A stretch of DNA of 60,839 nucleotides, from positions 1 through 60,839 of the forward strand of contig DRHW01000009.1 in assembly GCA_011053005.1 (NCBI GenBank). Reading direction: 5' to 3'. A model generated the notes under the pieces. The model saw nothing but the letters and a program-made list of their open reading frames with translations. It made no database searches and was not told the DNA's origin. The stretch's first letter is position 1, and every line of letters begins with the position of its first letter. Position numbers and translations under genes: made by a program. Below are positions 4,759 through 30,950 of the stretch, piece after piece. Source of the stretch: Methylophaga sp. GTDB lineage: Bacteria > Pseudomonadota > Gammaproteobacteria > Nitrosococcales > Methylophagaceae.

Positions 4759-4776
4759 ATTGTTAAGGAGATTAGC

Positions 4777-5013
4777 ATGACTAAACGTGACACACATAGG
4801 GTAATGCCACATAAAGATGGTGGTTGGCAGGTAAAACGGGATGGAGCTCTAAAAGCAAGTCATCATACGTCTACTAAAAAAGAGGCTGAACTGTTGGCAA
4901 GACCAATAAGCCGTAATCAGGAAACTGAACTTCAAATACATGGCAAAGATATGAAAATACAGCGTTCTGATAGTCATGGTAATGATCCTTTTCCGCCTAA
5001 AGATAAAAAATAA
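4777..5013 (+). CDS. DUF2188-like small protein
   Basis: This is a 78-residue protein with an AAGGAG ribosome binding site just upstream of ATG 4777. The order of a GGWQVKRDGA-like segment, a helix rich in Lys and Ala, an I-H-G-x-D-x-K-I-Q core and a final DPFPP is the pattern of the small DUF2188 family. That family is widespread and functionally uncharacterised, often found near mobile or restriction genes. It lies 18 bases after the DUF6161-like gene and is probably in the same transcript. Confidence 0.75.
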   Translation: MTKRDTHRVMPHKDGGWQVKRDGALKASHHTSTKKEAELLARPISRNQETELQIHGKDMKIQRSDSHGNDPFPPKDKK

Positions 5014-5027
5014 AATTTGTTAGATTA

Positions 5028-5756
5028 ATGAAATTTCAAACACTATTTTCTGCCAGCAATGCCTTATCTAAATGGTTAAAGCTCGATTTTCCGCGATTAC
5101 CAGTGGGTGAAGGCCAGCGTGTAGGTGTTGTGCCATTGCTAACAAATAGCGAGATGATTTCATGGCAATGTCATGTAATGTTTACTGATAGTTGGCGTGA
5201 GCGGGCAACGGTAATTGCGGTTGAGGCTCATAGTCGATTTACTCTGCTAATACCGTTTGATGTTGTGCCCAGTCAGGACAAACTTGAGCAAGTGATTTGT
5301 GAGCAATGGGCAAACGAGCTAGTAGGCTTGGCGATTAAACATGGTGAACTTGATCGAGATGCTATACCGCGAGTTTTTACTCAGTTTTATGAACGGGTAA
5401 AAGAGGTTACCTGGGTAAGAAATATGGATATGAGTGTTCAAGGCCATGTCAGTGATGCTGAGCAGTGGGTTAGAGATACATTAGCAGGCAGAGGGTTGGA
5501 TGCACTAGATGATGAGTTGGCACAAGATATTGCTTGGCATATTAATTCACTCCAGAAGCGGGCTAAAGATAAACTGGGCAATAAACGCACTTTATACCCC
5601 GTTCCATTATTTGTTGAGGATGGTTTATTCCACTTTGCATCCCCGCTAAGTCGTCATCATGATTTCAATAATCCTTACGAAATTCAAACTGGAAAAACGG
5701 ATAATGTGATTTCATTTATGGGGTATTTGGCGGAGAAAAATAATAATGAAAAGTAG
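5028..5756 (+). CDS. Hypothetical protein, 242 aa, in the R-M operon
   Basis: The N-terminal half alternates beta-like and helical segments (for example WQCHVMF and FTLLIPFD). The C-terminal half is helical and ends in an Asn/Lys-rich tail. I do not recognise it with confidence; its start loosely resembles DUF6933-type proteins. The ribosome binding site before ATG 5028 is weak. It lies 14 bases downstream of the DUF2188-like gene, so it is likely the last gene of the first transcription unit before the gap at 5757-6044. Confidence 0.6.
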   Translation: MKFQTLFSASNALSKWLKLDFPRLPVGEGQRVGVVPLLTNSEMISWQCHVMFTDSWRERATVIAVEAHSRFTLLIPFDVVPSQDKLEQVICEQWANELVGLAIKHGELDRDAIPRVFTQFYERVKEVTWVRNMDMSVQGHVSDAEQWVRDTLAGRGLDALDDELAQDIAWHINSLQKRAKDKLGNKRTLYPVPLFVEDGLFHFASPLSRHHDFNNPYEIQTGKTDNVISFMGYLAEKNNNEK

Positions 5757-5910
5757 CATCGCTAAATTTGACAGTCTTTTTGTCAAAGCTCAGAATAGTC
5801 ATAACACAATCGTCACGCTTAGTACCCTTATGGGCAACGCGCAACCTTGGTGGCTTTTTAATTTTCTTAGTCTGTTAATCTTCCTTTTAATAGTAAAACG
5901 ATTAAATAGT

Positions 5911-5940
5911 TTTACATTATCACCAAAATGTAATTATAAT
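5911..5940 (+). promoter_or_regulatory. Probable sigma-70 promoter for the NYN-nuclease gene
   Basis: TTTACA (5911-5916) and a perfect TATAAT (5935-5940) are separated by 18 bases. Transcription from it would begin near 5947 and pass through the structured segment and terminator-like hairpin at 5954-6020 before reaching ATG 6045. Confidence 0.55.
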
Positions 5941-5946
5941 TACTAC

Positions 5947-6020
5947 ACAACTCTCCCCTTGCAGGGTTATTTAGTTAACTGCTGTTTGGGGCGAAAAGAC
6001 CGCCTAAATGGCGGTTTTTT
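5947..6020 (+). ncRNA. Structured leader or small RNA ending in an intrinsic terminator
   Basis: Downstream of a strong promoter lies a compact structured stretch. A CCCC...GGGG closing pair encloses a GCAG...CTGC stem with a small loop. It is followed by a perfect terminator hairpin (ACCGCC at 5999-6004, 5-base loop, GGCGGT at 6010-6015) and six T. The next gene starts 24 bases after the T run. This could be an attenuator controlling the NYN gene or an independent RNA of about 75 nt. The terminator is directly visible; the RNA is inference. Confidence 0.4.
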
Positions 6021-6044
6021 CATTTCTGGCATAGGGAAAGCCGT

Positions 6045-6731
6045 ATGAAAACAATCTGTTATGTCGATGGCTATAACCTGTTTTATGGTTGTTTGAAACA
6101 TAGCGATGATAAATGGCTTGATCTCTATAAGCTATTATTTGAACACATCATTCATCAACAAAATCCTGAAAGTGAACTTGCTGAAATTAAGTTCTTTACT
6201 GCAGATATTAAAGCCAAAGTTGCCTCTCACGGCGATGCTGCCCAGCAGGCACAGCAAGCTTATCATCGAGCTCTAAAACAGTTATATCCCACAAAAATTT
6301 CCATTATCAATGGCTACTATAGCTTGGAAAAAGCAAGACTGTTGGCCTATAAGCAACCGCCTGATAAGTCTGATAGGGTTGAAGTTTGGAAGCTGGAAGA
6401 GAAACAAACAGATGTGAATATTGCGCTAGAGGCCTATCGTGATGCTATTAAAGGTAACGTGGAACAACTCGTATTTGTTTCAAATGATACTGATTTGGCA
6501 CCAGCCTTGAAAGCAATACGCGAAGACGTGCAAGATAAGGTGCAAATGGGCATCATTATTCCTATCCGAAAACCTCGTGAGGGTAAATCTCATCGTCCTG
6601 GTAACCAACAATTGAATAATTATGCTGATTGGGAACGAAATTATATTACTGATGAAGAACTGGCTAGTTCTCATCTACCTGACAAGATCCCAACTAATAA
6701 AAAGACAATTATCAAACCGGAGTATTGGTAA
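6045..6731 (+). CDS. NYN/PIN-like (LabA/DUF88-type) nuclease
   Basis: This 228-residue protein belongs to the NYN branch of PIN-like ribonucleases. The N-terminal YVDGYNL carries the first catalytic Asp (residue 8), the middle KQTDVNIAL carries the second, and VFVSNDTDLAPAL carries the paired DTD acids that bind metal. NYN proteins are generally RNA-processing or toxin-like nucleases. It overlaps hsdR at TAATG, so it is translated with it. It has its own promoter and leader, which suggests regulation separate from the upstream hsd genes. The specific target is unknown. Confidence 0.85.
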   Translation: MKTICYVDGYNLFYGCLKHSDDKWLDLYKLLFEHIIHQQNPESELAEIKFFTADIKAKVASHGDAAQQAQQAYHRALKQLYPTKISIINGYYSLEKARLLAYKQPPDKSDRVEVWKLEEKQTDVNIALEAYRDAIKGNVEQLVFVSNDTDLAPALKAIREDVQDKVQMGIIIPIRKPREGKSHRPGNQQLNNYADWERNYITDEELASSHLPDKIPTNKKTIIKPEYW

Positions 6732-9700
6732 TGACTCAATATATTCCTAAGTTTCAGGAAGAATACAGTGCCAAGCTGCCTGCATTAGCTTTACTGACCA
6801 ATCTAGGTTGGTCGTTTATATCTCCACAACAGGTACTCTCTGAACGTGGCGGTAGAAACAGTGAGGTGATTTTGGCTGATGTGTTACGGGCTGAGCTCTC
6901 AAAAAGACGTTTTACCTTCGCTGGTAAAGAATACCCATTGTCTACACATGCTATTGAAAATATTGTTGCTGAACTTTCTGGACCTGCTCTGAATGAGGGA
7001 CTGGGGATAGCCAATGAACGAATATACAACCATCTACTGTATGGCATTTCTGTCACTGAATTTGTTAATGGTAAAAAGGCAAACCCAACGATTTCGTTAA
7101 TTGATTGGCATGATGTTAGTAATAACAGTTTTGTATTTACTGAAGAATTTACCGTGTTACGTACTAATGGGATTGATACTCGACGCCCCGACATAGTGTG
7201 CTTTGTGAACGGCTTGCCCTTAGTTATTATTGAGGCGAAACGCCCCGATGGGCATAGTAATAAAGGTCCAACAATTGATGAGGGTATATCTCAGAGCTTA
7301 CGCAATCAACGTAATGACGAAATTCCTCAGCTATTTGCTTATAGTCAGCTTTTATTGTCGATAAATGGTACTGATGCACGTTATGGCACTCAAGGAACAC
7401 CCACAAAGTTTTGGGCTGCATGGCGGGAAGAAGATATTCCTGAAGTGAAAATGTTAGCCATTAAAAATAAACGACTGACTGAAAAACAAAAAAACCAATT
7501 GTTTGATTATCGTGCACCTGCAGATCGTACTTGGTATAACACACTGATTAATGGTGGTGATTTAGCACTAACGGGGCAAGATAAATTGCTTATTAGTCTC
7601 TTATCGCCTGAGCGCTTACTAGAAATGATTCGTTATTTCACGTTATTTGATAGTAAAGCGGGGAAAATTGTTGCACGTTATCAGCAGGCATTTGGTATTA
7701 AACGACTGATTGAACGTATCAATATTAAAAACAATAAAGGTGGCCGTGAAGGTGGGGTTATCTGGCATACCACAGGATCGGGTAAGTCGTTCACCATGGT
7801 CTTCCTTTCTAAAGCCTTAATTCTGCACGATACACTTAAACAATGCCGTATTGTGGTTGTAACTGATCGTGTTGACTTAGAAAGCCAGCTTAGTCGTACA
7901 TTTCAATCTGGTGGAGAGCTTGCCAGTAAAAAAGATAAAGCGGCAGCAATGGCGACTTCGGGCCGACGATTGGCAAGCCAAATTGGTCTGGGTCATGAGC
8001 GTATTATCTTTTCACTGATTCAAAAGTTTAATACCGCAACCAAAATACCTGAATGTCATAACGACAGTGCCGATATGATTGTATTGATTGATGAAGGACA
8101 TCGCAGTCAAGGTGGCGAAAATCACATTCGAATGCGTCAAATGTTACCCAATGCTGCTTTTGTGGCCTTTACCGGTACACCATTACTTAAAGACGATAAA
8201 ACAGAGAATAAGTTTGGCAAAATTGTTCATGCTTACACGATGCAACGTGCGGTTGAAGATGGTGCGGTTACCCCTTTACTGTATGAAGAACGTATACCTG
8301 ATCTTGATGTTAATGAACGTGCTATTGATAGTTGGTTTGAGCGAATTACAGAAGGCTTAACAGATGAGCAAAAAACGGATTTAAAACGCAAGTTTGCGAA
8401 GCGTGGTCAGGTATATCACTCAGACGATCGAATTCGATTGATTGCATACGATATTGCTTACCATTTTGATAAAAATATCGATGAAGGTCTTAAAGGGCAA
8501 TTAGCCTGTGACAGTAAAGCTTCAGCAATTAAATATAAAAAATACTTAGATGAAGTTGGCTTATTCGAAAGTGCTGTGGTGATGAGTTCGCCTGATACTC
8601 GAGAAGGCAACACTTCAGTTGATGAAGAGGATACGCCTGAAGTCACTAAATGGTGGAAAGAGCATGTTGGTACGCAAGACGAACAAGCCTATACCAAACA
8701 CCTAATTGAACGCTTTGAAAATGATAACAAACTCAAAGTACTTATTGTAGTCGATAAGCTGCTAACAGGATTTGATGAGCCTAGAAATGCGGTGTTATAT
8801 ATCGACAAACCACTGAAAGAACATAATCTGATCCAAGCCATCGCCAGGGTTAACCGACTACATCCACAAAAACAATTTGGTTTGCTTATTGATTATCGAG
8901 GCATTTTATCTGAACTCGATACAACTATAGCAAAGTATCAGGACTTAGCTGCACGTACTCAAGGTGGCTATGATGTCAATGATATCGCTGGTCTTTATCA
9001 TCAAATGAGTACTGAATATAGACGCCTTCCTCAGCTTTATAAAACACTGTGGGCTATATTTAGTAGTGTTAAAAATAAAAATGATATTGAACAGTTACGC
9101 CAAGTATTAGTACCTCGCACAGAAATGAGAGACGATGAGTTAGTCGATATTAATCAAAAAGTACGTGATGACTTTTATGATGCATTAACGGCATTTACAT
9201 CATGCTTAAAGGTAGCCCTGCAATCTGCTACATTCTATGAAGATAAAAGTTTTTCAGACGAAGATAGACGCCACTACAAAGAAACGGTTAAACAGTTTTC
9301 AAGTCTTCGCCAATTAGTTAAGCGTGATGCAGGTGAAACCATTGATTATGATGAGTATGCTGAGCAAGTTCGTAAATTAATGGATAAACATGTGGTCGGC
9401 GTTGAAGTACGAGATCCTGAAGGTGTATATGAAGTGGGTAAAATGGGCCAGCAAAAGCCTGAGACGTGGAGTGATGATAAAACTCGAAATGAAACCGATA
9501 TCATAAGAACGCGGGTGACTCGCACTATAGAACAGAAATTACGAGACGATCCTTATGCTCAAGAAGCTTTCTCCAAATTACTGTTACAGGCTATAGAAGA
9601 AGCAGAAGCGTTATTTGAACATCCAATGAAACAATTTATGCTGTTTCATGAATTTGAGCAACAGGTTGAAGAACGTCAATTAGAGGATATACCTAATAAA

Positions 9701-10012
9701 TTTGACGGTAATCATCATGCTCAAGGTTACTTTGGCGTGTTTAAGAAAGTATTACCTGATGTATTAGCCGTGACTGATATGCAAGTGCAAGATAAATGGG
9801 TGAAATTAGCTTTTGATATCGATGAATTAGTTGAGAAAGCAGTCGCTGAATATTCTATTAATCCACAAAATATTGAAGCTGAAATACGTAAAAAACTATT
9901 ACCCATGATGTTTACTGAAATTAAAGCGATTGGTTACGGTATGGATCAGGCTAAAGCCATCGTGGAATATGTCGTGCAAATAACGCGAGTGGGATTTTCT
10001 GGGGGCCAATAA
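6731..10012 (+). CDS. hsdR: Type I R-M restriction subunit HsdR
   Basis: This is a protein of about 1093 residues, full length for HsdR. The nuclease core PD-(D/E)xK is visible as PDIV...VIIEAK at about 152-171. The DNA-translocating helicase follows: Walker A TTGSGKS near 347, the DEGH box near 454, and a late ARVNR-type motif VI. The C-terminal third is helical. I chose ATG 6731 (TAATG overlap with the NYN gene) over the upstream TTG at 6725. All catalytic residues seem present, so with HsdM and HsdS the restriction system should be functional. Confidence 0.94.
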   Translation: MTQYIPKFQEEYSAKLPALALLTNLGWSFISPQQVLSERGGRNSEVILADVLRAELSKRRFTFAGKEYPLSTHAIENIVAELSGPALNEGLGIANERIYNHLLYGISVTEFVNGKKANPTISLIDWHDVSNNSFVFTEEFTVLRTNGIDTRRPDIVCFVNGLPLVIIEAKRPDGHSNKGPTIDEGISQSLRNQRNDEIPQLFAYSQLLLSINGTDARYGTQGTPTKFWAAWREEDIPEVKMLAIKNKRLTEKQKNQLFDYRAPADRTWYNTLINGGDLALTGQDKLLISLLSPERLLEMIRYFTLFDSKAGKIVARYQQAFGIKRLIERINIKNNKGGREGGVIWHTTGSGKSFTMVFLSKALILHDTLKQCRIVVVTDRVDLESQLSRTFQSGGELASKKDKAAAMATSGRRLASQIGLGHERIIFSLIQKFNTATKIPECHNDSADMIVLIDEGHRSQGGENHIRMRQMLPNAAFVAFTGTPLLKDDKTENKFGKIVHAYTMQRAVEDGAVTPLLYEERIPDLDVNERAIDSWFERITEGLTDEQKTDLKRKFAKRGQVYHSDDRIRLIAYDIAYHFDKNIDEGLKGQLACDSKASAIKYKKYLDEVGLFESAVVMSSPDTREGNTSVDEEDTPEVTKWWKEHVGTQDEQAYTKHLIERFENDNKLKVLIVVDKLLTGFDEPRNAVLYIDKPLKEHNLIQAIARVNRLHPQKQFGLLIDYRGILSELDTTIAKYQDLAARTQGGYDVNDIAGLYHQMSTEYRRLPQLYKTLWAIFSSVKNKNDIEQLRQVLVPRTEMRDDELVDINQKVRDDFYDALTAFTSCLKVALQSATFYEDKSFSDEDRRHYKETVKQFSSLRQLVKRDAGETIDYDEYAEQVRKLMDKHVVGVEVRDPEGVYEVGKMGQQKPETWSDDKTRNETDIIRTRVTRTIEQKLRDDPYAQEAFSKLLLQAIEEAEALFEHPMKQFMLFHEFEQQVEERQLEDIPNKFDGNHHAQGYFGVFKKVLPDVLAVTDMQVQDKWVKLAFDIDELVEKAVAEYSINPQNIEAEIRKKLLPMMFTEIKAIGYGMDQAKAIVEYVVQITRVGFSGGQ

Positions 10013-14555: not shown

Positions 14556-15323
14556 TTACGCAACATATTCGACGTGCTCAATATCTGCATCATAGTAAAG
14601 ATCCTTTGCAAGCCATTTATGCCCGAAAAACTGCTTGACTTCCTCGATTGTTTCACAAATTTTGCTATAGAAATAATCATGATCGTTTGCCCATTGGGTT
14701 CTACTTACTTTATGACAAATGAATTTACCAGCTAGCGTTTTATAGAGATCTAATTCTGTCCAACGACCAGTTTGTCCACTATAAAAATCCCCCATGGCAT
14801 GATTAGGTGAGCTGGCTGCACTTCCAATCAGTTCGCCTGTAAATCTAATGCTAGGAGCGTTATTAATTTCAAGTGTATATGTTTGCATGTCTGTGTCCTC
14901 GTATACGTCAATGTCAGTTACCTCTTCAATTTGAAGTACACTGTAATCTATGCTGCTGAAATCAGAATCTAAGTAGTGAGCTAATTCGTTTACATCCAAT
15001 GCCTCACCATCTTCGTCGATAACGGAAACACCTTCTACGGTCCAAATATCATCTTGCCCTTCAGTACCTACCGACAGTGAATCAGCATCGTATTCGTCGT
15101 AGTTAAAACTTTCAGTGTAAGTGATTTTGATTCCATTTAGGATTGAGGTTTGGGTAGCCAAACCAAAAACATGTTGAATATCTATCAGTTCAACATAGTC
15201 GCTTTCTGCATCATATTGTTCTGTTTTGTGAATTACATGATCAATTACGTCATAATCTTGTTCGCGATTCCAATCTTCGCGTTTCACTAAGATTATAAAT
15301 TCATCAATAGAGATAGTTTTCAT
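14556..15323 (-). CDS. Hypothetical acidic protein, last gene of the minus-strand cluster
   Basis: I placed the start at ATG 15323 (MKTISIDEF, 255 residues); an upstream GTG at 15377 is possible but has no better ribosome binding site. The protein is strongly acidic, with many DE-rich segments in its first 150 residues. The C-terminal 80 residues are more conserved-looking, with Trp-rich and aromatic positions (GRWTELDLYKTLAGKF, EVKQFFGHKWLAKDLY). That tail resembles hypothetical proteins of integrative elements, but I cannot name a family. A clean terminator follows. Confidence 0.6.
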   Translation of the reverse strand: MKTISIDEFIILVKREDWNREQDYDVIDHVIHKTEQYDAESDYVELIDIQHVFGLATQTSILNGIKITYTESFNYDEYDADSLSVGTEGQDDIWTVEGVSVIDEDGEALDVNELAHYLDSDFSSIDYSVLQIEEVTDIDVYEDTDMQTYTLEINNAPSIRFTGELIGSAASSPNHAMGDFYSGQTGRWTELDLYKTLAGKFICHKVSRTQWANDHDYFYSKICETIEEVKQFFGHKWLAKDLYYDADIEHVEYVA

Positions 15324-15737
15324 TATTAAGTCTTTTTGTCCCAGAATCCGAAGGGTACGGTCGTGAATACCTTCCACCTTTTTATTATGTGTGACGATTT
15401 GTTGGTTGTTAACACCCTAGAACAGTTTTATTTAAATTAAATTTGTAATGTTTAAAATTTTAATTATCTAAAATGTATCTAACCAGTTGATTTATATATA
15501 TCTATTTAATGGAATACATTTGAAACACATGGTGAACTACATTAAGACTATATTTAAAACTGGAAAGACACTTGCGTAAGTGCGTATAAATCGGGTGTAT
15601 GAAGATAATTCCCTCTATTAATTAGACGAAGAAGGATCTTGATCTCGAAAACTTGAATAAAATAATCATAAAATAAGCGATTACACCGAGAATGTTATAA
15701 GTCATCTTGGAAAAAACTGTGATGATTAGATGACCAA
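15324..15737. other. AT-rich intergenic stretch
   Basis: No gene is supported here. The DNA is AT-rich with many homopolymer runs. One small hairpin (CACTT GCGT AAGTG, about 15571-15584) is present, and the promoter for the minus-strand gene at 14556-15323 is presumably here, but no clear hexamers stand out. Confidence 0.4.
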
Positions 15738-15917
15738 CTAGTTATAGTTTCGATGCAGTGGGTAATTAAAGTGCTTTTCTAATAACTGCTGAATATCATC
15801 GATCAGCTGATCGCCCGCAGGATCGTCAACAAAATTAGGATCAATCTTGTTGTTGATTGTGCGAGCGATCTCTATAAGCGCACCGTCGATATTTTCCATG
15901 TATATTACTTTGTTCAT
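15738..15917 (-). CDS. Small hypothetical protein, 59 aa
   Basis: A short frame begins at ATG 15917 with a well-placed GGAG ribosome binding site on the minus strand. It encodes a helical protein (ALIEIARTINNKI, QLIDDIQQLLEKH). It lies between the metallophosphoesterase genes and the acidic protein on the same strand and may belong to that cluster. No family is recognised. Confidence 0.5.
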   Translation of the reverse strand: MNKVIYMENIDGALIEIARTINNKIDPNFVDDPAGDQLIDDIQQLLEKHFNYPLHRNYN

Positions 15918-16065
15918 CACTTATCTCCATTTGTACAAATATTTTCCAATAGCTTTTAATTCAAAAGTCTTCATTTGACCAAGTCATTTTGATTGATAGC
16001 TTTTTCTATTGAGGCTTGATGGTTCAAGGTCCAAAAATAATAATATAATCATGACTTCTTATGTC

Positions 16066-16899
16066 TTATAAGACAACAATCATTGGTTTTAAACCTTTAT
16101 ATGAAACAACACCATATTGATTCCCTGGATAACCAGCTGGGTGATTCATCACTAAGGTTCTACCAATACGCTGCGATTTTGCATGATGGATATGCCCATA
16201 AAACCACGCGTTAGGACCTAGCTGTTCTATCAGTTCATCTAGGTTGTTAGCGTAAGCCGCCGAGAGTAAGTCATATTCATAACCTGCAGGCATACACAAA
16301 GCTGAGGGTGCATGGTGTGTGACCACGATTGTTTTACCATCAAAAGGTTGTTCTAGCTCAGTCTTAATATAACTAATACTGTGCTTAAACCATTGCATCA
16401 TGTCATTTGGGGTCACTTTACGATTGTCATGAGCATATAATGCTATTTGCTCAAAATCATTCATATTCCATAGAACTTGTTGCAATACCCTCGCTTTTTT
16501 ATGAGCACCAAGCAGGTTAAAATCAGTCCACATAGTCGCGCCTATGAACCGACATCCTTTGATGACAACTGACTCACAATCTAGGACATGCACATTAGTA
16601 CTGTGAGTTATTTCCCTAATTTGTTCTAGAGCAGAAACTTCTTCACTGGCATCATAAAACTCGTGATTTCCCAACACGTAGATGACAGGCACATTGAACA
16701 GTTCAGACTGCCTGACTGCCCAATGTGCACCGAATCCTTGCGTGTCTATGTCTCCGGCTAATACGATGACATCAATTTTTTGATCTCCAATATGAAGATC
16801 TGGCAGGTTATTGCTTCTGCGTAGATATTCATTATGAATATCGCTGATAAGCGCCACTCTGAGTCGTTCAGTCTTCTGATTATCTACATCTGATTCCAT
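16066..16899 (-). CDS. Metallophosphoesterase 1 (calcineurin-like)
   Basis: This protein of about 277 residues has all calcineurin-like phosphoesterase motifs: SDIH (Asp20, His22), LAGD (49-50), GNHE (77-80), VTHH and GHIHH, which together bind two metals. I start it at ATG 16899, spaced 8 bases from AAGG, although a GTG lies 9 bases upstream. It begins only about 10 bases after the stop of metallophosphoesterase 2, so it is cotranscribed. It resembles metallophosphoesterase 3 in length and in the GNHEFY and THHxPS blocks, suggesting duplication. The substrate could be a nucleotide, nucleic acid or phosphoprotein. Confidence 0.88.
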   Translation of the reverse strand: MESDVDNQKTERLRVALISDIHNEYLRRSNNLPDLHIGDQKIDVIVLAGDIDTQGFGAHWAVRQSELFNVPVIYVLGNHEFYDASEEVSALEQIREITHSTNVHVLDCESVVIKGCRFIGATMWTDFNLLGAHKKARVLQQVLWNMNDFEQIALYAHDNRKVTPNDMMQWFKHSISYIKTELEQPFDGKTIVVTHHAPSALCMPAGYEYDLLSAAYANNLDELIEQLGPNAWFYGHIHHAKSQRIGRTLVMNHPAGYPGNQYGVVSYKGLKPMIVVL

Positions 16900-16909
16900 T
16901 TCTAACACC

Positions 16910-17446
16910 TTATTTAATAATTCCTTTACGTACTAATGTTTCTTTAATAACGGATAAATTGACTGGTGTGAAATTCCAACATTCCACTCCCATGTTTAAA
17001 TATCGTGGGTCATCAAGCTCGATATCGTGCAAATGACCGTGTAAGTTATAGGTAAACCGATAATCAAGCTGGCTGGTATGAATAGGAATATGAGTCATAA
17101 TCCCACGATCGTTTTTACTCATCGTCAGCTCTTTGCTTGCTAAAATTTCATCAAAATATTCGGCATAACTTGCCAAACCACCATCATAATGATCGTGATT
17201 ACCGGCGATGAGCGTCATCTTGCCGTTCAATCGACGTAATAGGTGCATATTTGATTTTCCGAATACGGCGTCACCTAAGTGATAAACACGATCATTGACG
17301 CCAACCACCGCATTATGTCGCTCAATCAGCACTTCATTCATCTCGTCAATATTGGCAAAGTCACGTAGTGGCTTATCATTATCACGTTTAAATTTGAGCA
17401 CATTACTGTGTCCATAGTGTGTATCTGCTGTAAAAAATACTTCCAT
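16910..17446 (-). CDS. Metallophosphoesterase 2 (short calcineurin-like)
   Basis: This 178-residue protein belongs to a different, shorter branch of the calcineurin-like family. It has ADTHYGH (Asp8, His10), HLGD (58-59), AGNHDH (82-86), THIPIH and HGHLHD. A good AAAGGAAGAG ribosome binding site precedes ATG 17446. It lies between two longer relatives in the same transcript. Short members of this family are often annotated only as phosphoesterases or hydrolases, and no substrate can be assigned. Confidence 0.88.
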   Translation of the reverse strand: MEVFFTADTHYGHSNVLKFKRDNDKPLRDFANIDEMNEVLIERHNAVVGVNDRVYHLGDAVFGKSNMHLLRRLNGKMTLIAGNHDHYDGGLASYAEYFDEILASKELTMSKNDRGIMTHIPIHTSQLDYRFTYNLHGHLHDIELDDPRYLNMGVECWNFTPVNLSVIKETLVRKGIIK

Positions 17447-17485
17447 TGTTTCTCTTCCTTTATTCTGTATTTACTTTGATTATGT

Positions 17486-18256
17486 TCATAGTTCAATCAC
17501 CCAGTTAGATTGATAATCAGATAAAAAGTGATCCCCGTTCATACCTTCACTCGGATAACCCATCTGATTGCTAACGACTCTGCACTTGCCTAACATCTCG
17601 TCGATATTGGAATGTGAATGGCCATATATCCATAAATCAGCTTGTTCCACTAACTCATCTAGGTTAGATAAAAATGCTGATGATATAGCACTGTATTCAT
17701 ACCGTTTATGTTGAGTAAGGATGCTTGGTCCATGATGTGTGATAACCACTGTTTTTTCTGTAAATGGCTCAGCTAATTTCATCTGTAACCATGCTCTGGA
17801 CTCTTTATGAATTGCCAACGCATCTGCAGGGCTGAATGCCCGATAGGTATTTCTAATGACTCTATGATCATTGAGTGCATTACCGATATATGCCATCGTG
17901 AATTGTTGGTGCTCGTGACCTGAACCTTTGTAATCTGTCCACATCGTGCAGCCCAAGAAACGAACACCATCAATGACCACTTCATTGTTTTCAAGAAAAT
18001 GGACGAGGGCACAGCTATCAGCCACAGCCCTAAATTTATCGAGTACCTCAGAATAGTCATGGTTATAAAACTCATGATTCCCAGCAATAAATAAAACAGG
18101 CTTGTTTTGTCTTTGTGCTTCACTGATTGCAAACTCAATGGCTTTAATTCCTACATGGATATCGCCTGCAAGCACAATCACATGTGCATCCGTAGTGGGT
18201 AACTGATAATCTTTTCTCATTTCGAGATGTAAGTCTGAACAAAATTGTATTTTCAT
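17486..18256 (-). CDS. Metallophosphoesterase 3 (calcineurin-like)
   Basis: This 256-residue protein has SDLH (Asp8, His10), LAGD (31-32), AGNHE (59-62), VITHHGPS and a YGHSHSN block, so the bimetal centre is complete. It is the closest visible paralogue of metallophosphoesterase 1: both have GNHEFY, a TMWTD segment and LDELVEQ or LDELIEQ helices. The start ATG 18256 has a GGAATAAG ribosome binding site. It follows the AAA ATPase gene by 74 bases. Confidence 0.88.
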   Translation of the reverse strand: MKIQFCSDLHLEMRKDYQLPTTDAHVIVLAGDIHVGIKAIEFAISEAQRQNKPVLFIAGNHEFYNHDYSEVLDKFRAVADSCALVHFLENNEVVIDGVRFLGCTMWTDYKGSGHEHQQFTMAYIGNALNDHRVIRNTYRAFSPADALAIHKESRAWLQMKLAEPFTEKTVVITHHGPSILTQHKRYEYSAISSAFLSNLDELVEQADLWIYGHSHSNIDEMLGKCRVVSNQMGYPSEGMNGDHFLSDYQSNWVIEL

Positions 18257-18330
18257 AATTCTTATTCCATGTTAAGTTGGTTTTTAATGTAATAGCAGGC
18301 GCTAAACAAATTATTAGCACCTTCTATTGC

Positions 18331-19428
18331 TTATAAAAAACCTATCCGTTTATCATTAGCTTCATCTTCAACCATCACAATGTCATCAGCCATAATCTGC
18401 AATTGCTCGTCTAATTTATGACGATGTTTAAAAACTGCTTCACTGGCTGCTGAAGTTAATATACGTTTCATTTCACGTGGGCTAGCCACGCTTAGCTTGT
18501 TCAAAATATCCATGCTTAAAGTCTGACTAAACCGTTTACCCCAGTCATTTTCAGCCAATAAATCTTTATAAACTGACTGAGCGATAGCAGGCATTTGTTC
18601 GCGTGTTGGTGCTTTGACCTTAAAAACCGTCATTCTTGATAGAATAGGAGCTGGGATGGCTTCAACGTAATTAGCCGAGGCTACCCAATTAATATCGCTG
18701 CAATCCATAGCAATCGTTAGAGCTTCATCTTTAAACGTTCTCGCCGTATCACGCTCTAAAAGAGTGTAAAAACAGCCCATCGGATCGTAATTTCCACTAC
18801 TGACCTTGTCGATTTCATCAATCAACAATATTGGATTAGCTACCTTGCTTTGACGCAAAGAATCACTCACAAAGCCAGGCTTTCCATCTGACCAACTTGT
18901 GCTACTGCCAGCGAGTACAAAACCAGCAGATGTCGTCGACATATCAATTTGAAAGAAATCTACAGACAGTACCTTGGCTAATTCTCGTAGAAAGCGCGTT
19001 TTCCCGATGCCAGGGTCACCTACAATCAGTAGCGGTGGCAAGTAAACAATAGCCGGTTGAGATAAGCTGGCTAGTAACAATGCTTTACGATAGTGCAAGA
19101 CAACGTCACTAAAGTTTGGGAATTTATCAGCTAAAGGAATCAGCTGTCCCAGCATGGCATCGTTAATCGATGCAAGTGATCGCATGTTACCTTCTTGTAT
19201 CATTGCTTCGAGACGAGGTTTTAAACGACTGTCCTTGGCTTGCTCGTTCATGACTTTTACGACGTCCACTATCGCGAAGATAGGTTTGTCATCACAAGGC
19301 AGATCTCCAAATGGATCATCTACATTCTCGTTAGAGTCGGTGCACGCAATTTTGGTCAAAAACGCGTGTGCATCATGTAATTGCCCATCATCTACCATGG
19401 CGTTTTCTATTTTTTTCTTATTGCCCAT
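18331..19428 (-). CDS. AAA ATPase (Lon/MoxR-like module without protease)
   Basis: This is a protein of about 365 residues starting at ATG 19428, chosen because AAAGGA lies 8-10 bases upstream; the longer frame to 19536 runs through a terminator. Walker A is GDPGIGKT (137-144), Walker B LLIDEID (201-207), with sensor 1 near NWVASANY and an arginine-finger region near ILSRM. The ATPase core looks like that of Lon, but no protease domain follows and the C-terminus ends after the lid. It is the first gene of the cluster with three metallophosphoesterases. A remodelling ATPase that gates phosphoesterase activity is one possibility, as inference. Confidence 0.82.
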   Translation of the reverse strand: MGNKKKIENAMVDDGQLHDAHAFLTKIACTDSNENVDDPFGDLPCDDKPIFAIVDVVKVMNEQAKDSRLKPRLEAMIQEGNMRSLASINDAMLGQLIPLADKFPNFSDVVLHYRKALLLASLSQPAIVYLPPLLIVGDPGIGKTRFLRELAKVLSVDFFQIDMSTTSAGFVLAGSSTSWSDGKPGFVSDSLRQSKVANPILLIDEIDKVSSGNYDPMGCFYTLLERDTARTFKDEALTIAMDCSDINWVASANYVEAIPAPILSRMTVFKVKAPTREQMPAIAQSVYKDLLAENDWGKRFSQTLSMDILNKLSVASPREMKRILTSAASEAVFKHRHKLDEQLQIMADDIVMVEDEANDKRIGFL

Positions 19429-19460
19429 ATTCGGCTTCCTTTGATTAAGTGCCGAGCAAT

Positions 19461-19491
19461 AAAAAGCCCGACAGGTTTGACCTCCGGGCTT
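19461..19491 (-). terminator. Terminator/attenuator 33 bases ahead of the AAA ATPase gene
   Basis: On the minus strand, AAGCCCG pairs with CGGGCTT, enclosing a second stem AGGT/ACCT with a 3-base loop, and is followed by five T. It would stop transcripts before they reach the ATPase start at 19428. A second hairpin with an 8-base perfect stem (CAGGAGGG and CCCTCCTG, 19514-19533) lies just upstream. This position, inside the 5' leader, suggests attenuation. Confidence 0.65.
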
Positions 19492-19551
19492 ATCAAATCT
19501 ATACATGACAAAACAGGAGGGGTAGCCCTCCTGCACACAACAGGCGAGCTA

Positions 19552-19611
19552 TTATCGATGGCGTGAATGCCACCAATAATTATTTATCTCGACTCGTATC
19601 GTGTTGTGCAT
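19552..19611 (-). CDS. Putative 19-codon leader peptide
   Basis: A short frame on the minus strand starts at ATG 19611 with AGGAAAG upstream and reads MHNTIRVEINNYWWHSRHR, ending at TAA 19552-19554. It contains two adjacent Trp codons and several His and Arg codons. An 8-base inverted repeat (19537-19544 and 19619-19626) brackets the frame and could mask its ribosome binding site. Two hairpins, the last an intrinsic terminator, follow before the ATPase gene. Short length makes coding uncertain. Confidence 0.35.
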   Translation of the reverse strand: MHNTIRVEINNYWWHSRHR

Positions 19612-21029: not shown

Positions 21030-24000
21030 GTGAGTTTAATTAATTCAGATGAGCGTTTTTTTTACGGGAGAGGGCGTGAGTTAGCAAAACTTATTGAACA
21101 TTGGCAATTAGTAAAAGATAAAAAGCAGCCATGTTGGGTAAATATTATCGCTGAAAGTGGCTCTGGTAAGACAAGGATCGTTCAAGAGTTCTATAAATCA
21201 ATTATTAAAATGGACGATGAGTTAGGTTATTGGCCTGACTATTTACCTCAAATTAATGAACAGCTAGAAATTAACCCAAAGTTAGAAGAATTCGCCGATA
21301 AACAACCTGAGCAGCTGTCTGAAATTCCTTGGTTGTGGTGGGGGATTAAAGGTCTTAATACCGGGATGAGAGAGGGGCAAGCAAACAACTATGCAGCAGA
21401 TGTTGCTCGGAGATATCTAGACCCTCACTTGGCTAGTTATCTTTATAGGTCTATAGCAATATCAGCAGGAAAAAGTACTTTTAAAGACCTTAGAAATATT
21501 GCAATGAATATCCTTACAGTTGGGTGGTGGGATGCAATATTATTTATGTCTGACCGTAGTAAAGATGCAAAAAAAATGCAGGAAGCTAGTGAGTTACTAA
21601 AATTAGATATTTTAAGTAGAAGCAAAAAGAGACAAACGGATATCCAAGAATCGTTACTCGAAGGCTTATATCAAATAATTTCTGAGAAAGAAATACACCA
21701 ATTAATAACAGATAAAGTAACTAAAAATCACAATATAGCATCTTTACCATTGATATTGGTTTTAGATGATGTTCAGTGGTTCGATCAAGAGTCTCGAACG
21801 TTGATAGCACGTTTAATCGAAAAAGTTGGTAATCAGAAACTACCTTTAATGATTATTTCAACAACATGGACAAAAGAGTGGCAAGAAGGGTGCGATTCAC
21901 TTAAATCAACGTATGACGGATTTCAGGGTGAAAAATGCGAGATCAATCTATCAGGTTTTGATGGAAATGAGGCAGCTAGCTTTATTCGCGCAAGAAAGCC
22001 GAATCTATGTGTGAATGACATTCAAATGATAAAAGACAGGGCTAATGGTAATTATAGACATATCACTGAGCTTATGAATGCTATTGAACGAGATGAAAGA
22101 TGTATAAATGACGAAGGTGAATTAAGTCAGTTTGGTCTCAAACAGTTAAATAAAAATACCAGTCTTGAGCACCTTATTGCAGAAAGATACTATGATCTAA
22201 GGGCTGAGATTAGAAGTGCTGTAGAAATCTCAAGTGAACAAGGTCCTCGTTTCGATGTTGAAAAGACTGTGATAGTTAAAAATATTCTAAGTGATACACC
22301 AGAAAAAGAGCATAACGAAATATTAGTTTTTAAGGCGATCAACGATGCTGAAAATCCTGGTTCAATAATCAGTACTATTACACTGAATGAAACAGAGTCA
22401 GCACTAAAAGAATTTATTCATGGTCCATATTTCAAAGTTATAAATGATTTATATCTTGAAGATGAAGAGCGATCTTTAAAAGTAAAGAATGCATATCATT
22501 CAATTTTAATTGAAAAGATCTGTAGTCAGAATGATTTAGAGTTTGCTACAAAGATATTTTTGGAAACGAATGATATAGAAAAGAAGCTTCATCTGTCTCT
22601 AGTTATACTTCAATACTTAGTCGAAAATAATCAATATTTCAAAGCACTATCTTATATAAAAAAAATTGCAGAAATATCTACTGAAATCTTATTTCGCGAT
22701 CATTATAAAGATAACCTTGAAAGTCATCCTATAGAAAAATATGTTGAGTCTTTTGGATGGCCTGATAATCATTATCTACAGTCTATATCAGCACTGAAAG
22801 TCATCAATTATTACGGTTATTTATTAGCTAAAGAGATGTCTATTTCAGAGAACGGTGCCCAGATACTTGGAATGATAATAGGTCTGAAATTAGACAGTGA
22901 ATTAGAAGATTATATCGAAAATGGAGATACTTCAAAAGATATACCTTTATCGCAGTTAATTGATGCATGTAGGCTACTCATTTTATACAAGGACACAATT
23001 GGAGAAACAAAAACTCGAATTAAATATCGTTCTTATATGGAAAAACTTTTAGTACTAAGACTGGAAGAACAATACCAATTCGATAAATGTGATGAAGACT
23101 TATTCGAGCTTGTGAATGTTGTTCACGAAAAAGCAGAGTTAGAGATTAAATTTGCATATAGCAAAGCCAAAAGGAAGGCAATTTATGATGAACTAAGAAA
23201 TTTTGATGAATGGTTAAATAAAAATATTGTTAAATTTTGTGACAAAAAATATTACGACATAATACTAGCTAGACAGATTGTAACAACGTTAATAATTACA
23301 CCTGTGGTAGTGGTTGATTATTCAATAATGGAAGCAAATAAACGCAATATTTTTGAGCGTGCTGCAGATAAGTTAGGAGATATTTTATATTGTCTTGATG
23401 AAGTTGACGATGAAAAAGTGGCACATTGCTTTATGAATGAGATCGCTTTAGGAAGCCCTGAGTTAGCCAAACAGTTGCTTTTTGCTGCAAAAGTTGTCTT
23501 AGAAGAATCATTATTGTCTAATTACTCAATAGCTACATTATTTTTAGACAGACTTTTCAGAGTTAGTAATGCACTTTTTGAGCAATTAGAAGACAACGCA
23601 TATTTTGATACTCATTTTATGAGAGTGTTAATGGAGCTTTGGCTCGCTCTCTTTGAAAGATATAAACGTAATTATCAAACTAAGACTAAAAAGAATTCTG
23701 AGAGTAACTATATTCATGAAGGTTCCAGATTTGAATTTTATCTATTAGTAGATAGGGTCGTCAGTCATGAAGAGGTGATGAATATGCTGCCACGTATTGC
23801 AAAGATAGGACAAAATATTTATGAGCATAACCGTGGAAATATTGAAGTGATGGTGAGTTACGCTCGGTTTAATGTAATGGAGTTAGATGACATGCAAGGA
23901 TTACGCAACAATGATGTCAGAGAAAGAGCTCTAGGTTATTTTACGAGGATCATAGAAGATGCGAGATTGACGAATGATCCTAGAAGGATAACAAGGACTA

Positions 24001-24152
24001 ATATGCCTGTATTTCTTGAATGGATTATAAAGCTTTATCATTTATTTCTAAAAGAATCTGATACAGATAAAGAGCTATGGAATCAAGTTACAGATCTTTA
24101 TAAAAAGGACCTTACAAATCAATTAAAACGACACGGATATATGTCTTCATGA
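21030..24152 (+). CDS. Large AAA_16/STAND-like ATPase, 1040 aa
   Basis: The N-terminus opens with FYGRGRELAKL, the usual lead-in of AAA_16 (ORC/STAND-type) ATPases. Walker A AESGSGKT (41-48) and Walker B LVLDDVQWFD near residue 243 follow, then a STTWT sensor-like segment. About 650 residues of helical, unrecognised sequence make up the rest, which could be a repeat-type sensor. There is no N-terminal effector such as a nuclease, TIR or protease. GTG at 21030 is preceded by GGAAGG. It stands alone, so a single-gene defence or regulatory role by analogy with STAND proteins is inference. Confidence 0.75.
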   Translation: MSLINSDERFFYGRGRELAKLIEHWQLVKDKKQPCWVNIIAESGSGKTRIVQEFYKSIIKMDDELGYWPDYLPQINEQLEINPKLEEFADKQPEQLSEIPWLWWGIKGLNTGMREGQANNYAADVARRYLDPHLASYLYRSIAISAGKSTFKDLRNIAMNILTVGWWDAILFMSDRSKDAKKMQEASELLKLDILSRSKKRQTDIQESLLEGLYQIISEKEIHQLITDKVTKNHNIASLPLILVLDDVQWFDQESRTLIARLIEKVGNQKLPLMIISTTWTKEWQEGCDSLKSTYDGFQGEKCEINLSGFDGNEAASFIRARKPNLCVNDIQMIKDRANGNYRHITELMNAIERDERCINDEGELSQFGLKQLNKNTSLEHLIAERYYDLRAEIRSAVEISSEQGPRFDVEKTVIVKNILSDTPEKEHNEILVFKAINDAENPGSIISTITLNETESALKEFIHGPYFKVINDLYLEDEERSLKVKNAYHSILIEKICSQNDLEFATKIFLETNDIEKKLHLSLVILQYLVENNQYFKALSYIKKIAEISTEILFRDHYKDNLESHPIEKYVESFGWPDNHYLQSISALKVINYYGYLLAKEMSISENGAQILGMIIGLKLDSELEDYIENGDTSKDIPLSQLIDACRLLILYKDTIGETKTRIKYRSYMEKLLVLRLEEQYQFDKCDEDLFELVNVVHEKAELEIKFAYSKAKRKAIYDELRNFDEWLNKNIVKFCDKKYYDIILARQIVTTLIITPVVVVDYSIMEANKRNIFERAADKLGDILYCLDEVDDEKVAHCFMNEIALGSPELAKQLLFAAKVVLEESLLSNYSIATLFLDRLFRVSNALFEQLEDNAYFDTHFMRVLMELWLALFERYKRNYQTKTKKNSESNYIHEGSRFEFYLLVDRVVSHEEVMNMLPRIAKIGQNIYEHNRGNIEVMVSYARFNVMELDDMQGLRNNDVRERALGYFTRIIEDARLTNDPRRITRTNMPVFLEWIIKLYHLFLKESDTDKELWNQVTDLYKKDLTNQLKRHGYMSS

Positions 24153-24970: not shown

Positions 24971-25846
24971 ATGTTCAACACTTCTTTAAAAGATGAAACT
25001 CATAACAAATATTTACAAATGGCCAATAGTTTTTTAATAAAACATGACCTAGATATTGTTAACAACGGTGAAAGACTTTGTACAATATTAGCATCTATTA
25101 GTTCTGACTATCGACCAGCGTACTGGCGTAATTTACGTAATGCCATTTCTTATTATTTGTTCACTGAAAATCATCGAAACCTTGCTGAAAAAGTAAGGCA
25201 ATTATCGAACCCAGTCACGCTAGAAAATGGTGACGTTAAACCTAAACAACAACGCTGTAAAAAAGTGACAGAACAAGATATGCAGATGTTAATGGTTGAA
25301 GCGATGCAGCAAAAAAATCGTACCTTAGTGGCGGCCATATATATAGCCAATTTGACGGGATGTAGACCCTGTGAGATGCCGACAATTTCACACGTTTCTG
25401 ACAATACATTTCTTATAGTTGGTGGCAAGAAAAGATCGGATCGCGGCCTAGATAGGATGTTAAAAATTAATGATAGAGCTACAGCTGAGTTATTTGGAAA
25501 GATGTTGAAAATTATCTCAGGAAAAGAGATGAAACCAATACAAAATGCATTCGACAGATCATCAAAAAAAACATTTAGAAAACGAAAAGTTACGCCAAGC
25601 TTGTATTCATTTCGGCATCAGATGGGAAGTGATCTTAAAGCTTCTGGAATTGATAGAAAGACTGTTGCATATCTAATGGGTCATAGGGCAACTCAATCAG
25701 TCAATGTTTACGGTAATAGACGTACGGCAGGAGGCCGTAGTATTAAAATTGTACCTGGAATTAATGATGATGAAATTAATAAGTTGGTGAAAGAAAATCA
25801 TCAAATCGGCGTGATTAATAGTAGTGAAAATAACAAGTTGTACTAA
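24971..25846 (+). CDS. Tyrosine site-specific recombinase
   Basis: This 291-residue protein has the catalytic layout of the phage integrase family: Arg132 in TGCRPCEM, a beta-hairpin Lys (153/154), the SFRH block with Arg215 and His216, GH at 237-238 and nucleophile Tyr247 in NVYGNRR. The position that is usually His in HxxR is Tyr212, a departure from the consensus. The N-terminal 95 residues form a core-binding-like helical domain. A structured palindromic region lies directly upstream. It may move the element or catalyse an internal inversion. Confidence 0.8.
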   Translation: MFNTSLKDETHNKYLQMANSFLIKHDLDIVNNGERLCTILASISSDYRPAYWRNLRNAISYYLFTENHRNLAEKVRQLSNPVTLENGDVKPKQQRCKKVTEQDMQMLMVEAMQQKNRTLVAAIYIANLTGCRPCEMPTISHVSDNTFLIVGGKKRSDRGLDRMLKINDRATAELFGKMLKIISGKEMKPIQNAFDRSSKKTFRKRKVTPSLYSFRHQMGSDLKASGIDRKTVAYLMGHRATQSVNVYGNRRTAGGRSIKIVPGINDDEINKLVKENHQIGVINSSENNKLY

Positions 25847-26197: not shown

Positions 26198-26238
26198 GAT
26201 CAAAGTATAAATTAATGGACAGTTAAGCCATGTTCCAG

Positions 26239-26268
26239 TTGAGCAACGCCAGATCTGACGTTGCTCAA
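26239..26268. repeat. 30-bp near-perfect palindrome, copy 2 of 2
   Basis: Arms TTGAGCAACG and CGTTGCTCAA flank a core that differs from a perfect palindrome at one base pair. The central 22 bases match the palindrome at 11053-11074 at all but one position. It lies between two small genes, 25 bases ahead of the next start codon. Confidence 0.6.
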
Positions 26269-26292
26269 TCAGCGTTTATTTGGAGTAGTAAA

Positions 26293-26646
26293 ATGTACAC
26301 AGATGATATTTTAAGATTTCTTCCCCCTGATCACGTCTCACTTCGAGATTGGAACATTATTATTGTTGATGTCCCGAATGAGTGTCACGAAGAAATATTT
26401 GTAGGCTATAGCGAAGGTGACCGCTTAGGTCGTCTCAGCACGCCGATTAAAAATTACGATGCAAATACTGGGATAGGTGAAACACGTTCCGGCTCTAGCT
26501 ACATGACAATAGGTGAACCAGGTAGCCCCCATGATGATGCTATTTACGTACTAGAGCAAACCTTCGGTAAAGATCTGATAGAAAGAGAGTTATTTAGCGA
26601 CAGTGGCCAAAGTGTATTGGCGTTTAAATATCCTCTTAATAAATGA
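26293..26646 (+). CDS. Hypothetical protein, 117 aa
   Basis: I chose ATG 26293 with a GGAG ribosome binding site; the frame extends upstream to 26230 but that part is the palindrome. The sequence has an acidic, Gly-rich middle (RSGSSYMTIGEPGSPHDD). No family recognised. Confidence 0.5.
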   Translation: MYTDDILRFLPPDHVSLRDWNIIIVDVPNECHEEIFVGYSEGDRLGRLSTPIKNYDANTGIGETRSGSSYMTIGEPGSPHDDAIYVLEQTFGKDLIERELFSDSGQSVLAFKYPLNK

Positions 26647-28577: not shown

Positions 28578-29381
28578 TTAGATAGGAAGGTACGTCCAGA
28601 TATTATTGAGGTTACCTATTTGTAGGTGCTGTGACGTTGGTGGCGATTCAGTAAAGTCAGTTAACTCATATAGGTGAAGTGTGTAAAGCAATAATGCTGC
28701 TCGGGTGTTGACTTGAATGACCATGCTTTCTTCACTGCCATTATGGTCGGAGGCGATCACTTTTCTTTGCTGTTCATTAAACTGCAGATTGGGCGTTAAC
28801 AATAAGGTAACCATGGTGTTCCACGACTTGTCATTATCGATATGAGCTGCATTAAGTTTTTCAGGAATGAGTGTTAGAGTCGGATTTATTCTTGCAATAT
28901 TGAAATCTTTAAATGACTTTGATTGCAGCTCATAAGCCCTGATATGCCAGCGAAATCCACTACGAATAACTGAGTGAGGGTAGATTGTTCTTAGTTTTAG
29001 GCCGGTAGGATCATTCATTGACCGATAAGAGACTTTCAGGCCAAACGAATTGCGAATAGATTTATTGAGTACACGATAAATTTCCGGATTAATAGCTCTG
29101 CTTTGAGTTTGCATTATATATGCAAAGTTATTTGGCGCTAATGCAATTGAATAGTATTCATCAAAACTGTATGTACTAACATATTGACCTAGAGCATGGT
29201 CAGGTACGTATCGTCGTGTGCTCCCATCATAAAACACAGCGTTAGGATAACTTAACTTTAACCCTTGAAAGTCCTTTGTTGCTTGTGTAGATGCAATTCC
29301 AAACATCTTTACTAGATCGCCCCGTGAGACCTCACCTTCCCAGTATGTCTTTAATAGAATATAGCGTAGACGTTTTTCCAC
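28578..29381 (-). CDS. WYL-domain transcriptional regulator (BrxR/CapW-like)
   Basis: This is a protein of about 267 residues. I chose GTG 29381, preceded by TGAGG; the frame is open further upstream. The N-terminus has a winged helix-turn-helix (EVSRGDLVKMFGIASTQA). The middle WYL domain shows FRWHIRAYELQSKSFKDFNIARI, and a C-terminal WCX-like domain follows. Regulators of this type repress defence operons and are encoded divergently from them, as here with Wadjet. The perfect palindrome at 29447-29467 between the two is its likely operator. Confidence 0.85.
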   Translation of the reverse strand: MEKRLRYILLKTYWEGEVSRGDLVKMFGIASTQATKDFQGLKLSYPNAVFYDGSTRRYVPDHALGQYVSTYSFDEYYSIALAPNNFAYIMQTQSRAINPEIYRVLNKSIRNSFGLKVSYRSMNDPTGLKLRTIYPHSVIRSGFRWHIRAYELQSKSFKDFNIARINPTLTLIPEKLNAAHIDNDKSWNTMVTLLLTPNLQFNEQQRKVIASDHNGSEESMVIQVNTRAALLLYTLHLYELTDFTESPPTSQHLQIGNLNNIWTYLPI

Positions 29382-29446
29382 ATAGAACCTCAGAGTAATA
29401 ATTTCGATTAAAATATAACATAATACCCTACATGACATAAAGTGTT

Positions 29447-30941: not shown

Positions 30942-30950
30942 AGGAATAAC

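Follow-up and report, generated by a model that had tools for sequence, protein, structure and literature searches.

A recurrent group of a protease-less Lon-like AAA+ ATPase and metallophosphoesterases in mobile and island DNA of Proteobacteria, and its possible role in genetic conflict

The DNA considered here, hereafter the window, is the whole stretch of 60,839 nucleotides of contig DRHW01000009.1 from Methylophaga sp. (assembly GCA_011053005.1). It contains a four-gene cluster, in which a gene for a Lon-like AAA ATPase is followed by genes for three metallophosphoesterases (MPE1, MPE2 and MPE3; MPE stands for metallophosphoesterase). We consider it an evenly balanced proposition that this cluster belongs to a recurrent modular ATPase-phosphodiesterase operon of mobile or island DNA in Proteobacteria, probably serving in conflict with phages or rival elements. 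As it recurs, the group is made up of one protease-less Lon-like AAA+ ATPase, followed or sometimes preceded by one to three MPEs of a few subtypes: MPE1/MPE3-like, MPE2-like and PrpA/NinI-like. With three MPEs from two families, the window is the richest locus seen.

The four genes are arranged on the minus strand in the order ATPase, MPE1, MPE2, MPE3, from 19428 to 16066 (Table 1), and their catalytic motifs are intact. Because the intergenic gaps are only 74, 39 and 1 bp, the last lying between the MPE2 stop and the GTG start of MPE3, a single transcription unit is suggested. Three of the seven PF00149 matches of the genome fall within 2.2 kb at the cluster, which, together with the recurrence of the ATPase-MPE linkage elsewhere, argues that the clustering goes beyond chance. 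A preliminary description, made from the sequence alone, had read this region as a Lon-like ATPase without protease and three calcineurin-like phosphoesterases of two subtypes, two of them paralogues around a short third type. Matches to Pfam, NCBIfam and PHROG confirm this (PHROG scans covered the proteins of the window and two others), as MPE1 and MPE3, which are 36.1% identical, both belong to phrog_1649 and flank the phrog_547 protein MPE2. The span of 14556-19428 that had been assigned to the cluster has to be shortened: the open reading frame (ORF) at 14556-15377 (273 residues) is separated from MPE3 by about 690 bp, has no match in Pfam, PHROG, NCBIfam or PADLOC, is absent from the neighbour clusters listed, and is not supported as a member.

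Table 1. Coordinates of the cluster genes, the leader and the integrase gene, in positions of the window
Feature	Position	Strand	Description
AAA ATPase	18331..19428	-	ATG at 19428; 365 residues; opens the cluster; protease-less AAA module of Lon type
MPE1	17486..18256	-	256 residues; calcineurin-like; phrog_1649 family; PptH-like fold
MPE2	16910..17446	-	178 residues; short; phrog_547 family
MPE3	16066..16908	-	280 residues; MPE1 paralogue; phrog_1649 family; GTG start
Structured 5' leader of the ATPase gene	19429..19600	-	terminator-like hairpin, then T's, upstream of the ATG
Tyrosine integrase	24971-25846		Pfam

The main support comes from the genomic neighbourhood of related ATPases. With the ATPase as query, 59 genomes (the own genome and 58 relatives), 369 genomes of the class and 398 of the phylum were searched, the phylum sample excluding genomes already in the class sample; ATPase counts for class and phylum are those among the matches listed. 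MPEs were located by PF00149 and by local profiles that were rebuilt twice from their own matches. A match to the profile grown from MPE1 and MPE3 of the window with their relatives is called MPE1-like, and a phmmer match of MPE2 is called MPE2-like. In the class sample, nine ATPase rows above 137 bits were kept besides the window, and lower rows were assigned to Lon by score and open frame. In the phylum sample, 39 rows of at least 160 bits with frames too short for Lon were kept, together with G499:C3, which has an odd 3929-residue frame (G, C and L numbers are our own labels for genomes, contigs and loci), while rows below 160 bits were excluded, including the short frames of G534, G549, G489, G565 and G657, which were taken as Lon ends. 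The chance of linkage per locus, as calculated from the MPE density, is 1.3 to 1.5%.

In the phylum sample, an MPE was found within 2 kb at 13 of the 39 ATPase loci, against a chance of 1.27% per locus (P 1e-15 by locus); by genome the linkage amounts to 11 of 29 (P 1e-12) and by family to 5 of 9 (P 5e-5). The relatives and the class provide 12 ATPase loci besides that of the window; in 3 of these an MPE lies at most 2 kb away (L052, L129 and L133; P 7e-4), and in 6 one lies within about 5 kb if L066, L131 and L135 are added. These figures were obtained with search profiles that included rows near MPEs (profile A1: window, L052, L066; profile A7: window, L066, L129, L131, L133, L135, L038) and may favour linked subfamilies; L038, fetched via its MPE match, and L258, which is outside the 66 rows described below, are in neither of the two chance-tested samples. 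A random association in other genomes had been named beforehand as the outcome that speaks against a functional cluster, and with linkage at a third of the phylum loci where 1.3% is expected, this is not what was found.

Over all ATPase rows, which include near-copies (for example L334/L335 and L319/L320) and some loci that stop at contig ends, 22 of 66 are linked, again by an MPE within 2 kb, and in 20 of these 22 both genes are on the same strand. At least two MPEs on the ATPase strand occur in six linked rows (window, L129, L263, L316, L327 and L333), and in the viral collection at L187 and, by profile matches only, at L178. Between ATPase and MPE genes, overlaps of 1-4 bp occur, their extent varying with the start codon chosen; they are annotated in L258 and L262 and are seen for the longest ORFs in L129, L133, L312, L314 and L316. 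Of 21 partner MPEs, 20 have the full set of MPE motifs. The distances among the ATPases correlate with those among their partner MPEs (Mantel r 0.54 for 21 pairs, and 0.73 for the 14 pairs that remain when seven rows of one family are dropped; p 1e-4 each), as expected for genes that travel together. In a tree of the 66 ATPases with Lon, where the window ATPase groups with a truncated ATPase of the same genus that has an MPE3 relative 0.7 kb away (L052), the linkage needs 10 changes, at least seven of which are forced by well-supported branches, whereas shuffled data need 18.9 on average and none of 500 shuffles was as low. The ATPase-MPE pair has therefore come together or separated repeatedly, yet far from randomly. 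When neighbouring genes were clustered, MPE1-like proteins came out on top of the families listed, apart from the overlapping frames of the ATPase itself, with 22 loci; MPE2-like proteins were found at 5 loci including the window, and ORFs of a zinc-finger-like type (c5) at a similar number. Of the neighbourhood conservation envisaged for the four genes, the linkage thus recurs, often tightly, on the same strand and sometimes with at least two MPEs, while no other locus examined has precisely these four genes. Nearest to it is L333, with the ATPase, about 0.5 kb further on an MPE2 relative, an MPE1/MPE3 relative and a zinc-finger-like ORF.

The linked group occurs in alpha-, beta- and gammaproteobacteria and varies in its architecture. 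On plasmids, pairs are found in Microvirga terrae (L257) and in Bradyrhizobium USDA 123 (L262, MPE first), and an ATPase with two MPEs in Sphaerotilus (L263); a plasmid of Rhizobium leguminosarum BT01 (L258), a locus that was chosen knowing of the pair, also carries it. From one plasmid match list, eight of the first ten rows were examined, the other two being unannotated: the genes are adjacent in three (L257, L262 and L263), separated by three ORFs in L259, and accompanied by an MPE2-like gene 5 kb off in L260, and no MPE partner was seen in L261, L264 and L265, nor in five further plasmid matches (L039, L266, L267, L268 and L269). Outside the named plasmids, at loci that are chromosomal or unassigned, the ATPase is followed in L129 by an MPE1-like protein and a further MPE, and in L133 by a single MPE; the latter two we take to be PrpA/NinI-like by our own reading, the profile result for that of L129 being PF00149. 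L316 combines an ATPase with two MPEs of unlike score, and L327 has the order MPE, ATPase, MPE.

The ATPase matches the Pfam family AAA (PF00004) at 50 bits. Its match to the Lon model TIGR00763 of NCBIfam is partial, covering residues 133-285 at 90 bits, below the cut-off of 608, and Lon matches in the PDB are confined to residues 119-286 (E 2e-21). Walker A (GDPGIGKT) and Walker B (ILLIDE) are both present. No peptidase domain was found by Pfam or NCBIfam past residue 285, and the AAA match is followed by about 80 more residues. The reading of it as a broken Lon was rejected in view of its intact motifs and of a Lon-sized relative of 807 residues with an AAA match, encoded in the window at 53220-55643. 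The predicted structure of the ATPase is poor (mean pLDDT 55). The same genome encodes another ATPase of this family with 44% identity (G000:C33, L064, 3929-4969); an integrase-like gene and a gene for an HD-domain protein are nearby, and no MPE lies within 2 kb.

All three MPEs hold the motifs DxH, GD, GNH[E/D], TH and GHxH. MPE1 and MPE3 match PF00149 at 52 and 63 bits, both above the cut-off, and phrog_1649 at 182 and 156 bits, respectively; MPE2 reaches 23.5 bits for PF00149 against a cut-off of 21.5, with further matches to phrog_547 (171 bits) and to aq_1665 (1xm7, E 1.3e-7). Searches of the PDB with the sequences of MPE1 and MPE3 alone gave nothing useful, and a profile of the MPE1 family found PptH (6unc) first (E 2e-8, positions 5-77). 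PptH is also the best structural match in the PDB of the AlphaFold2 model of MPE1 (pLDDT 92.6), with a VIA-align Z of 24.2, the next match having 17.6, a root-mean-square deviation of 3.0 for 245 aligned residues and a Foldseek TM of 0.73, at an identity of only 16-18%. Further structural matches are Mre11, SbcD, Rv0805, MPPED2 and Dbr1, with a Z of about 14-16 for Mre11 and SbcD. The predicted fold points to a phosphodiesterase and does not point to a particular substrate. The same genome contains a degraded second copy of MPE1 (G000:C40, L053, 1766-2427), beside genes read as encoding a Y-family polymerase, an HD-domain protein and an integrase.

If these parts work together, the AAA protein would form an ATP-driven ring, which may sense or remodel a target and then deliver it to the MPEs or license them; we infer such an ATP-driven licensing from what is known of the protein families. 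The MPEs would break phosphodiester bonds via a two-metal centre, the likeliest targets being the nucleic acids of an invading element or its nucleotide signals, and interchangeable MPEs would provide different specificities. A more specific version, in which an undescribed anti-phage or anti-plasmid family uses an AAA+ sensor-unfoldase to drive one to three swappable MPE effectors, with several phosphodiester targets per operon, is less likely than not and is put forward here tentatively.

The surroundings of the cluster bear on the proposed role in conflict. On one side of it is a type I restriction system (811-10012; HsdM, HsdS and HsdR), and on the other are the Wadjet genes JetABC (29496-34923). 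Between the subunits of the restriction system lie AbiZ-like (3526-4758), PDC-S63-like (5028-5756) and HEC-09-like (6045-6731) genes. Linked loci elsewhere are likewise found near defence genes: CBASS is about 3 kb from L258, a type III restriction-modification system is present in L313, Kiwa genes occur, L317 contains an MkoC-type Mokosh, a type I restriction-modification system and AbiEii, and L323 a pAgo with a TIR-type pAgo-associated protein, as identified by PADLOC. No named system of the 2023 PADLOC library matches the ATPase and its partner strongly (best for the ATPase is DolB with 25 bits; none for MPE2), and a description of the ATPase-MPE pair was not found among the matches listed in the literature searched, chiefly open-access with few preprints.

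Several observations weigh against a conflict operon, and against a single fixed system. An MPE within 2 kb is missing in 44 of the 66 ATPase rows, and one large ATPase clade of 12 rows is unlinked, several of its members sharing neighbours that we read as housekeeping genes. Near relatives of the window ATPase are found without MPE (L064, and L065, which starts at a contig end) or with an MPE 3.4 kb away (L066). Seen from the side of the phosphoesterases, the 41 MPE loci of the class, a set that does not contain the ATPase-bearing L129, have a single weak ATPase-like match (36 bits) in their stretches, and an ATPase is present at none of 14 MPE loci of the genome collection, at 2 of 12 around the relatives (L052, and L063 at 41 bits) and at 2 of 81 viral ones. 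MPE2 was found in the genome of the window and in none of the 58 relative genomes, and within the genus the set of genes flanking MPEs is shuffled from locus to locus. Finally, PADLOC matches in the flanks are not significantly enriched, with about 16 of 117 proteins for the linked loci and, for MPE-only loci, about 9 of 119, or at most 12 (Fisher P 0.14 when 9 is used). The figure of 16 adds up distinct names among the 25 families listed first out of 41, which makes double counting possible and misses unlisted families, and 9 applies if the SspH and mad8 matches are the same three proteins. The comparison used 19 linked loci, including L258 with its CBASS, and as control 12 MPE-only loci, which may themselves lie on islands. 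Since defence genes lie near linked loci, yet this count is not significant, we regard a role in conflict as likely and defence as a lead only.

Upstream of the ATPase gene, the leader has a predicted RNA fold of -63.2 kcal/mol (z -4.95; none of 200 shuffles was equally stable), and we infer a candidate attenuator that would be suited to conditional expression. Rfam at the gathering threshold gave no family at this leader and only two tRNAs in the window. A motif shared with other leaders was considered and dropped: it has one match in the window, not above chance, and among the loci only the window's own copies were found.

Other genes were noted in and around these loci. On the opposite strand beyond the ATPase, 21030-24152 encodes a 1040-residue AAA_16 protein (PF13191, 50 bits; weak STAND-type matches), a possible conflict gene, and a WYL protein (28578-29438) lies ahead of JetA, JetB and JetC, with 34920-36095 as possible JetD. 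The c5 family ('CGDGW ... VKEKFGG') occurs near MPEs or the ATPase in L001, L056, L066, L135, L306 and L333, and two copies scanned had no Pfam match. Small ORFs of another family (c2) accompany MPE relatives in the window (26230-26646) and in L001, L002, L052, L056 and L057; the window copy has no match in Pfam, PHROG or NCBIfam. In L318, a circularly permuted YpsA SLOG protein (PF12694, 872-1363) is encoded between ATPase and MPE, and in L039 a 'putative molybdenum carrier protein' near the ATPase.

As alternative to a dedicated operon, the neighbours in the window may not form one machine at all, if mobile elements simply gather MPEs, HAD proteins, SLOG proteins, an exonuclease, zinc-finger-like ORFs and the ATPase in shuffled order. 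The unlinked majority of ATPase rows and of MPE loci examined fits this loose assembly, as do the mixed order in which c2, c5 and MPEs recur (L001, L002, L040, L054, L056, L057 and L066), the NIF-type HAD phosphatase beside L314, the SLOG gene inside L318 and, by our own reading, a HAD-like gene beside L316. However, the close or overlapping gene ends, the shared strand, the correlated distances and the repeated gain and loss in far branches exceed what random shuffling would leave, and we think that this explanation is doubtful. It has to be considered as well that the MPEs could hydrolyse nucleotide second messengers or damaged-RNA ends that arise from host defences, the ATPase aiding the persistence of the element. 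MPE relatives are common on viral contigs (499 confirmed among 600 pattern matches listed), calcineurin-like phosphodiesterases have been predicted as counter-nucleotide enzymes in jumbo phages (PMC7824862), and in mycobacteria a phage MPE undermines the defences of the host (PMC12287305). Such a counter-defence is nevertheless unlikely, as the ATPase as query was not found on viral contigs in two scans and is present at so few of the MPE-bearing viral loci, and as several bacterial loci adjoin defence systems of the host type.

Two further mechanisms start from the folds. PptH removes phosphopantetheine from carrier proteins (PMC8557913), and it is the best structural match of MPE1 by a wide margin and the best PDB profile match; PptH-like MPEs might therefore remove a phosphodiester-linked group from proteins presented by an AAA unfoldase, and protein substrates would suit a Lon-like AAA module. 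Yet likeness of fold shows no function, Mre11, Rv0805, MPPED2 and Dbr1 match too, and no carrier protein or transferase was noticed in the neighbour clusters listed, no search having been aimed at them, which makes this de-modification quite improbable. An equally slim chance is given to an accessory complex for processing DNA ends, on the model of SbcCD or Mre11-Rad50, by which the element's DNA would be repaired or trimmed. It would be in line with the Mre11 and SbcD matches and with genes for error-prone and Y-family polymerases near L257 and, by our own reading, similar ones near L313 and L332, but the partner is an AAA+ and not an ABC/SMC protein, MPE1 matches PptH far better than Mre11, and varied, duplicated MPEs are unusual for a repair core. 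Recurrent, located in several places beside known immune systems and not described in the literature matches listed, the gene group stands as a concrete candidate for a conflict system that would be new. It also gives phrog_1649, a common phosphoesterase family of phages and plasmids, a partner protein in the ATPase, and hence a route to its role.

Among known systems, the PADLOC candidate model PDC-S10, in which PDC stands for phage-defence candidate, matches the N-terminal halves of MPE1 and MPE3 (48 bits each; model positions 10-112 and, for the best stretch of MPE3, 4-116 of 223). The ATPase and MPE2 have no match to it, and we take it as a weak lead at the level of one gene. Lon protease shares the AAA core, which aligns over about 155 residues including Walker A, Walker B and the conserved N, R and R; the ATPase differs in having neither a peptidase nor a match to the Lon N-domain, many members of its family have a short IGF-like C-terminal end, and its MPE partners are separate genes. 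PptH, the phosphopantetheinyl hydrolase of Mycobacterium tuberculosis, is the nearest solved fold to MPE1, and the metal-binding motifs are kept, but the identity is low, and the available part of the PptH paper mentions no AAA partner (PMC8557913). SbcCD and Mre11-Rad50 likewise pair an ATPase with a metallophosphoesterase, and MPE1 shares their MPE nuclease fold (Mre11 Z about 15-16, weaker than PptH). The resemblance ends at the ATPase, as Rad50 and SbcC are ABC-type ATPases. The jumbo-phage review describes them in the same way (PMC7824862). Here, in contrast, an AAA+ ATPase (PF00004), with no SMC or ABC family among its Pfam matches, is combined with one to three MPEs.

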